Shown here: positions 63,002-63,942 of the stretch, piece by piece | How positions within the stretch are numbered: the stretch's first letter is position 1 | How the letters are laid out: every line of letters begins with the position of its first letter | Assembly: GCF_009193255.1 (NCBI RefSeq) | Contig: NZ_WACG01000005.1 | Span: 248,001 to 312,000, forward strand | DNA length: 64,000 nt | DNA from: Arthrobacter koreensis | Lineage (GTDB): Bacteria; Actinomycetota; Actinomycetes; Actinomycetales; Micrococcaceae | Direction: 5' to 3' | Position numbers and translations under genes: made by a program | The notes under the pieces: model-generated | Told to the model about the DNA's origin: nothing | What the model saw: the letters and a program-made list of their open reading frames with translations, nothing else | Database searches by the model: none

Positions 63002-63019
63002 GTGGCGGGCGCGGGGCGG

Positions 63020-63610
63020 AAGGTCCTTTTGGTCCCGTTCGGCCCAGGACCTGGGTGGTCTCCTGAGCGGAGGTGCCCGGTCGGGTAGGCGGGGGGGGGC
63101 GGGTGCCGGGCGGGCTGGGGGTCGAGCAGGCCGGGGCCGGCCGGGCGCGACCGGGATTCCCACCCGCTGTGAAACCTGCTTCCTTCTGGGACCACACCCG
63201 ACTCACCAGCAACGAAGGGTGGGAACGCCTGCACGACCGAGCGGCGGACGGCCCGTTTTGTCCCGTTCGCCCCAGGTCCCGGGTGGACTCTGAACGGAGG
63301 TGCCCGCCCGGCCTGGCAAGCCGGCTACCGAGCAGGACGGGGCCGGCCGGGCGCGACCGGGATTCCCACCCGCCGTGAAACCTGCTCCCTCCTGGGACCA
63401 CACCCGACTCACCAGCAACGAAGGGTGGGAACGCCTGCACGGCCCAGCGGCGGACGGCCCGTTTTGTCCCGTTCGCCCCAGGACCCGGGTGGACTCTGAA
63501 CGGAGGTGCCTGCCCGGCCGAAGCACGCACGGCCGGGGCAGCGCGGAGATTCCCACCCGCCGTGAAACCTGCCTCCTCCTGAGGTCACACCTGCCTCGCC
63601 AGTAACGAAG
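63020..63610. repeat. three degenerate tandem repeats of about 190-230 bp
   Basis: GTCCCGTTC-containing blocks recur at 63032, 63260 and 63466 and GATTCCCACCC blocks at 63155, 63361 and 63548. Each unit pairs TTCCCACCC with a later GGGTGGGAA, and carries CGAAGG before it. Copies 1 and 2 share long identical runs; copy 3 has diverged. Reading frames through the block are low-complexity Arg/Pro/Gly and do not look coding. Confidence 0.75.
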
Positions 63611-63663
63611 GACGGGCACGTCGGGACCCGCAAACCCAAACCGCCACAACCCCGGAGACAGCA

Positions 63664-63692
63664 AAAGCCAGCGAATCGACTTCGCTGGCTTT
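63664..63692. terminator. terminator hairpin
   Basis: AAAGCCAGCGAA and TTCGCTGGCTTT form a perfect 12-bp stem around TCGAC. The T-run is longer on the minus strand (TTTTGC), so it best serves a minus-strand transcript arriving from the right. Confidence 0.85.
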
Positions 63693-63898: not shown

Positions 63899-63942
63899 GG
63901 TTTCACTCATGTTTCACACATGTGTGAGACATGAGTGAAACC
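63899..63942. promoter_or_regulatory. 44-base near-perfect palindrome
   Basis: The 22-base arms match at 21 of 22 positions with no spacer. Nested inside is TCACACATGTGTGA. Outer ends read GGTTTCAC and GTGAAACC. It may be an operator for the RNA or gene beside it, or a chromosomal protein-binding site; it contains parS-like half-sites but no intact parS. Confidence 0.75.

Follow-up and report, generated by a model that had tools for sequence, protein, structure and literature searches.

The tandem array and its locus

The window, by which we mean the whole stretch of 64,000 nucleotides of Arthrobacter koreensis DNA that was analysed, carries near its right end an amidase gene (PF01425; 61292-63001, plus strand) and, between the amidase stop codon (63001) and a convergent gene, a tandem array. 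The amidase is full length with 569 amino acids, its closest relative (L094) aligns over residues 1-569, and it is 90-91% identical to the amidases of Arthrobacter sp. Edens01 and A. gandavensis. Repeat comparison within the window places a tandem pair of 206-nt units, 92% identical to each other, at 63105-63310 and 63311-63516 on the plus strand, each composed of a palindromic element and a locus-specific spacer, and TRF gives the array a score of 738 at a period of 206. An 80-nt core occurs three times, beginning at 63155 (96% identity), 63361 (the reference) and 63548 (81%). The covariance model introduced below recognizes on the same strand two 69-bp copies of the element at 63157-63225 (copy 1, 83.4 bits) and 63363-63431 (copy 2, 84.5 bits, the best match of the genus model), and a third at 63550-63618 whose right arm is decayed (copy 3, 64.3 bits). 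The spacer segments start at 63006, 63234 and 63440.

An earlier note on this DNA had described a tandem repeat of about 190-230 bp per unit, and the start-to-start distances of 228, 206 and 187 agree with it. Three cores are present; correcting the note, the leftmost piece (63006-63084, plus strand; repeat families D3 and D5) is a partial unit of spacer only, without a palindrome. The internal complementarity TTCCCACCC/GGGTGGGAA, attributed by the note to every unit, pairs perfectly in the first two copies and has decayed in the third, and the rightward decay it remarked on is true of the palindrome. Beyond the array, a hairpin AAAGCCAGCGAA/TTCGCTGGCTTT (63664-63692) is also kept in A. gandavensis. 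A 22-bp gapless inverted repeat, GGTTTCACTCATGTTTCACACA/TGTGTGAGACATGAGTGAAACC, lies further on at 63899-63942; it is 95% complementary, is kept in A. gandavensis SR10, and may be an operator of the adjacent minus-strand gene.

Given that no Pfam domain was found in four open reading frames tested across the array and that its period of 206 is not a multiple of three, the array looks non-coding, as the note had proposed. The opposing case, that a coding gene ends here in decay, is contradicted by the intact amidase and by the A. gandavensis SR10 locus (L095), where the distance from the amidase stop to a CCCCGG motif, compared by eye, is 22 bp against 648 bp in the window (63002-63649), a net difference of 626 bp. 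The element model finds nothing at the amidase loci of SR10 and 13 other relatives, and the array was therefore either gained in the lineage of the window or lost in the relatives.

A nucleotide search of the genome, which the note had put forward as a check, matched five further places, and only the 69-bp core recurs there. The spacer matches this array only within its own genome, gives four weak partial matches in four other genomes, and resembles neither the spacers of other arrays nor the nuclease flanks among those tested. The spacer had been considered as a second dispersed element; this was dropped, and its apparent palindrome scores below shuffled sequences.

A dispersed palindromic element

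The core is a 69-bp imperfect palindrome, extending to about 83 bp with its flanking arms, and reads TTCCCA followed by GTGAC, is centred near TGGGACC and then runs through a GTCAC-like mirror motif to TGGGAA. A covariance model (R1) built from 20 copies yields 33 copies at 17 loci of the same genome (E up to 0.001; strands merged by hand) and picks up the element in 24 of the 29 genus genomes, where counts are rows and include both strands. In a family-wide search of 197 genomes with stricter filters (E up to 1e-4), 13 genomes match, 12 of the genus and a single outsider, G174, out of approximately 185 family genomes outside the genus. A count of zero means that the model recognized none, since one such genome (G014) holds a variant; this is a 76-bp palindrome seen by eye at L232 after the matched gene, at a site orthologous to an element site.

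Element length varies only between 68 and 71 bp in 46 non-redundant copies, and most copies are intergenic. Neighbouring genes, identified with a crude gene caller, could be assigned at 36 of 49 loci (12 were unresolved and one was scored inside an open reading frame); 19 of these loci lie between convergent genes, 15 between co-directional genes and 2 between divergent genes, and the excess of convergent over divergent contexts has a binomial p of 2e-4 with loci that are not all independent. A 5S rRNA gene was recognized at three element loci of the own genome, and a fourth locus (L006) ends in the same 5S-like sequence. At the ends of the own rRNA operons (L003-L006, by eye), one full element is followed by tandem one-arm half-copies beside the 5S end, as if half-sites can multiply too.

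Copies at the same locus resemble one another most, the twelve closest pairs being 89-97% alike, whereas among the top pairs listed for the 12 of 17 own-genome loci compared, identity between loci does not exceed 77% apart from the rRNA ends. No near-identical copies were found at unrelated loci among these 12, and growth of the element thus appears to be mainly local, with recent dispersal not seen. Some orthologous sites are kept between species, as judged by eye, and others are not occupied in every genome. The site after a gene that we take to be CoA-transferase-like holds an element in G000 (the own genome) and G005 and none in G023 and G024.

A probable double-stranded site rather than an RNA

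Covariation between the arms was evaluated in 46 of 80 copies (less than 80% identity, length up to 71), the 80 having been hand-picked from 161 rows by taking the best strand and omitting duplicates and some array members. Every base of TCCCA and TGGGA is present in 45 or 46 of the 46 non-redundant copies and G13 and its partner C in all 46, counts that are upper bounds because the copies were collected by model search. Watson-Crick pairs from arm to arm sum to 859 against 841.5 expected (z 1.4), with positions -5 (z 4.8), -4 (2.9), 1 (2.8) and 14 (4.2) as exceptions, of which positions 1 and 14 follow clades. Mirrored arms with so little covariation of the hairpin type point to a site that would be recognized as double-stranded DNA by a symmetric protein. 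The conservation shows no significant 10-bp helical periodicity, the best period being 9.5 (block-permutation p 0.26).

The RNAalifold consensus of -3.0 kcal/mol, with 10 pairs of which 2 are compensatory, is a weak fold. At gathering cut-offs, Rfam gives no match in the window and, in 15 related loci, three 5S rRNA matches and nothing else; a permissive search of five loci adds three sub-threshold microRNA matches. An RNA gene, which the earlier note had entertained, or a riboswitch was rejected on these grounds together with the near-chance covariation.

A probable nuclease gene beside the element

The clue to a partner came from four genomes with two elements about 1.1 kb apart, in three of which a gene is called between them; the fourth (G011) was matched later in the nuclease search. 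The encoded protein has about 280 residues and ends in a DUF559/MTES_1575 domain (Vsr-type REase), MTES_1575 being assigned to the Vsr-type nucleases in a published study (PMC3710099). Pfam DUF559 scores 23.0-25.0 bits against a cut-off of 20.6 in all three genus proteins tested and 25.5-41.6 bits in all four homologues. For AbiEi_4 (PF13338, cut-off 25), two of the three genus proteins reach 20.0 and 24.9 bits and the third has no match, and among the four homologues one scores 37.4 and another 24.9 bits; the AbiEi-like start of some members is also detected by PADLOC AbiEi. The partner is thus a probable fusion of an AbiEi-type winged-helix start and a Vsr-like PD-(D/E)XK nuclease end, judging from these domain matches. 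Conserved acidic and histidine residues of such nuclease domains are catalytic, and E190, D217, E227, D229, H234, R237, R244 and W247 are invariant in all 20 proteins of alignment A3, in which the protein of G015 was not included, its frame being lost after about residue 193. This G015 gene (L262) belongs to the genome whose 9 element rows are the fewest among the 21 with a nuclease. NCBIfam gives no match for four proteins, and the best PDB match, 3r3p ("mobile intron protein"), is not significant (E 0.51).

A single nuclease match was obtained in each of 21 of the 29 genus genomes, and the own genome holds a single copy (G000:C7:64580-65428). In all 21, an element lies 22-235 bp from the gene, where the chance of one gene being that near an element is about 1% by rough estimate; in 15 of them an element ends 115-131 bp upstream of the nuclease match start. 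The upstream element is continued in several genomes by a tandem series with a period of about 90-105 bp, reaching eight copies in G027. Elements on both sides within 300 bp are found at only 6 of the 21 loci. One neighbouring gene recurs at 19 of the 21 loci, where it lies downstream in 18 cases and upstream in L246, and a second recurs at 9; in L237-L239 the neighbours are presumably a short-chain dehydrogenase and a DUF488 protein. Given this single conserved neighbourhood, the nuclease is probably inherited vertically within the genus and the 21 adjacencies are not independent. Searches of phages, plasmids and IMG/VR contigs gave no relative of the nuclease.

Shared presence, shared absence and co-variation

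All 21 nuclease-bearing genomes carry elements, with 9-53 rows each. Among the eight nuclease-free genomes, in which a profile search likewise found no nuclease, five have no element rows (G001, G003, G010, G014 and G022) and G020 has one, and the remaining two carry elements without a detectable nuclease (G004 with 37 rows and G024 with 16). Two or more rows are therefore present in 21 of 21 genomes with the nuclease versus 2 of 8 without it (Fisher p 5.9e-5, kinship not corrected). Well-scoring elements occur in both G004 (L060, L079) and G024 (L057), and either a recent loss of the nuclease or a different partner would account for them. In a CoA-transferase tree of 21 of the 29 genomes, which lacks G014, has several weak forks and gives G019 a very long branch, genomes with no nuclease and at most one row stand in three places (G020; G001, G003 and G022; G010), and G004 adjoins the G001 group.

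The profile search covered 79 genomes, 8 of the genus and 71 others, and the homologue of G174 scores highest among the 71 (260 bits, the next 219). The G174 gene is flanked by similar palindromes, of which the genus model recognizes the downstream one only. Within the genus, all 12 element copies compared for one nuclease clade, from seven genomes, begin with A or G and end with C or T (the ATCCCA...TGGGAC type), their GTGAC motif is mostly GGGAC (8 of 12) and the mirrored motif GCACC (10 of 12), whereas the main other group begins with T in 46 of 52 and ends with A in 50 of 52. This comparison was made after the difference had been noticed, with the clade read from alignment A3; it leaves aside nuclease-adjacent copies, draws its 12 copies from 7 of the 9 clade genomes, and has a third group of 3 copies. 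Similarity of nucleases and of elements is correlated over 18 genomes (Mantel r 0.55, with none of 5000 permutations as high). This co-variation supports a partnership and does not prove it, since shared descent could give the same result.

Homologues in other genera

With a gapless dyad scan, 12 of 28 loci from other genera were positive, and the scan picked up no more than 5 of 11 genus loci in which elements are known; given this insensitivity, it was replaced by a comparison of upstream with downstream flanks. Flank similarity exceeds z 5 at 18 of 30 homologue loci of other genera, and the same test is passed by only 4 of the 21 genus loci. The controls gave 0 of 28 CoA-transferase loci and 3 of 360 random placements made in two of the homologue-bearing genomes, with four samples that possibly hold nuclease genes omitted from the random placements. 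A score of 24 or more is reached at 16 of the 30 homologue loci versus none of the 360 placements, and 12 of the 30 have no matching flanks.

At 14 of the 18 positive loci the alignment of the flanking repeats extends over 72-123 bp, and at 16 the direct orientation gives the higher score; the repeats differ in sequence from locus to locus. At L264, L273, L278, L280, L281 and L283 they share a central GACACGCC/GGCGTGTC motif and have different arms. Palindromicity, tested at the 18 positive loci, is significant in at least one copy at 12 (19 of 36 copies) and in neither copy at 6, and some palindromes of other genera contain perfect hairpins. Paralogue flanks compared within one genome, in two genomes, show at most a marginal likeness, with scores of 20 (shuffle maximum 19) and 16 (shuffle maximum 18). 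Dispersed copies are scarce in two other genera: samples of 400 kb yielded one further full-length copy in G102 (E 5e-6) and a weak one in G076 (E 0.004), and the crossed controls of these two samples showed no dispersed copies. With such repeats flanking the gene across genera, a merely coincidental adjacency is unlikely.

Proposed explanation and its alternatives

Two of the natures that the earlier note had offered, a protein-binding site and a member of an element family, gain support by inference from the finding that the repeat is dispersed and dyad-symmetric and is accompanied by a nuclease gene, and its third, an RNA gene, does not. We regard the association of palindrome and nuclease as very probably genuine, and the data suggest a previously unnoticed partnership built from parts unrelated to those of the known repeat-enzyme pairs. 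Our preferred reading, to which we assign a probability of roughly 0.56 with its mechanism included, is that the array arose by local amplification of a dispersed double-stranded palindrome whose partner is the AbiEi-DUF559 nuclease. We infer that the nuclease binds and cleaves the palindromes, regulates itself through them, and copies or controls them. A dimer would read both arms of the palindrome; binding to the copy upstream of its own gene would provide autoregulation; and a cut or nick at palindromes could be repaired by recombination that copies them and multiplies them in tandem. The palindromes would accordingly spread and persist only where the nuclease is present or recently was. 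Copying by way of the nuclease, taken as a claim by itself, is tentative and in our judgement falls a little short of an even chance. The odds seem to us balanced on the wider proposal of a new nuclease-palindrome class in the Micrococcaceae that is independent of REP/RAYT, in which each AbiEi-Vsr/DUF559 nuclease would propagate its own double-stranded palindrome of 70-100 bp in flanking, solo and tandem form, the two co-evolving and being lost together.

The main rival is a pure regulator. The AbiEi-DUF559 protein would then act mainly as a DNA-binding regulator or chromosome organiser; ordinary tandem duplication would multiply its sites, selection would maintain them, and the nuclease would have no part in spreading them. 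The near-constant length of 68-71 bp, the mirrored arms with little covariation, the element found in 15 of 21 genomes at 115-131 bp upstream of the match start and the orthologous sites seen by eye to be kept between species all suit an operator, and the contrast of 89-97% identity within loci to at most 77% between them is what local duplication predicts. The catalytic-type residues are however invariant, so that cutting probably matters, and in many genera the gene has repeats on either side, more than an operator at a promoter would require. We consider this alternative unlikely, though it deserves to be taken seriously.

A lower standing, that of an improbable explanation, is given to a repeat of the ERIC or BIME kind that is inert or useful to the host as a terminator, mRNA stabiliser or supercoiling site, with the proximity of the nuclease being a coincidence inherited at one locus. 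The predominance of convergent over divergent neighbours (19 and 2 of 36), the arrays adjoining 5S rRNA genes, the one neighbourhood that the nuclease occupies within the genus, and the elements of G004 and G024 without a nuclease are all in keeping with it. It does not account for the shared absence at three places of the tree, for G174, which has both elements and the best nuclease homologue outside the genus, or for the differing repeats that flank homologues in other genera. A structured RNA array, whether of non-coding RNAs or attenuators, is very improbable: single copies are able to fold into hairpins, but Rfam yields only 5S rRNA at gathering score besides the three sub-threshold microRNA matches, the consensus fold amounts to -3.0 kcal/mol and the arms covary near chance. 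Classical REP elements, which RAYT (Y1 tyrosine) transposases mobilise, would likewise be palindromic, intergenic, clustered and paired with an enzyme gene, and this reading is dismissed almost entirely, as PF01797 is found in 0 of 29 genus genomes and GTAG in 0 of 80 copies.

Should the preferred reading hold, nature would have found a second, unrelated solution to enzyme-dependent palindromes, and such populations would have arisen more than once. It would also give a testable role to DUF559, a Pfam entry of "unknown function", and explain an abundant repeat of Arthrobacter genomes.

Comparison with known systems

Homing endonucleases of the I-Bth0305I type act on a long pseudo-palindromic target, and 3r3p is, as we take it, I-Bth0305I itself, a homing endonuclease of the Vsr fold. 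The nuclease described here probably has the catalytic fold in common with them, the match to 3r3p (E 0.51) not being significant, and by analogy an enzyme that cuts a long symmetric site in the manner of a homing endonuclease would fit. One study treats Vsr and I-Bth0305I as alike (PMC11879112). The differences are that no intron or intein was seen and that the target here would be a multicopy intergenic repeat.

AbiE is a type IV toxin-antitoxin system whose AbiEi protein binds its own operator. The AbiEi-like start of some members and the inverted repeats upstream of the gene recall it, but here a nuclease domain is fused and the repeats are dispersed genome-wide. ERIC, BIME and MITE sequences are imperfect palindromes of near fixed length between genes, a description that also suits our element; it differs in having no Rfam family match and in having a chromosomal nuclease gene, not an insertion sequence, as its probable partner. 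As to the marks of a MITE, the best identity between loci outside the rRNA ends is 77% (12 of 17 loci), and the junctions are too diverged for a target-site duplication to be read.

To our knowledge, bacterial intergenic palindromes with a dedicated enzyme have been described only as REP/RAYT and their relatives. A literature search found no account of this palindrome family or of a link between DUF559 and palindromes, a result that does not establish absence in print, most subscription journals being outside its scope. No RAYT gene (PF01797) was found in any of the 29 genus genomes, with 5 of 14 controls positive in the same search, so that mobilisation by RAYT is refuted for the genus at the sensitivity of this search. 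GTAG was found near neither end in any of 80 copies; for the two sides of the same copies, CGTC occurs 2 and 1 times and GACG 1 and 4 times.

The likeness to REP/RAYT systems (REPtrons, REPINs) lies in clustered extragenic palindromes that are dispersed over the genome together with an enzyme gene flanked by them, as set out in three reports (PMC2817692, PMC3116915, PMC3733652), and in an enzyme whose presence tracks the abundance of the repeat and whose pairing is lineage-specific, as described in the first of these (PMC2817692). The enzyme here is however a Vsr/DUF559-type nuclease, while theirs is a Y1 tyrosine transposase (IS200/IS605-like), and the element is 69 bp long and dyad-symmetric, while theirs is a hairpin of 20-40 bp with a GTAG head. 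Hairpin covariation is moreover slight in the genus (overall z 1.4), and the flanking repeats of other genera score higher in direct orientation (16 of 18 loci). The pair of palindrome and nuclease is thus a parallel to REP/RAYT in its arrangement and is no member of it.
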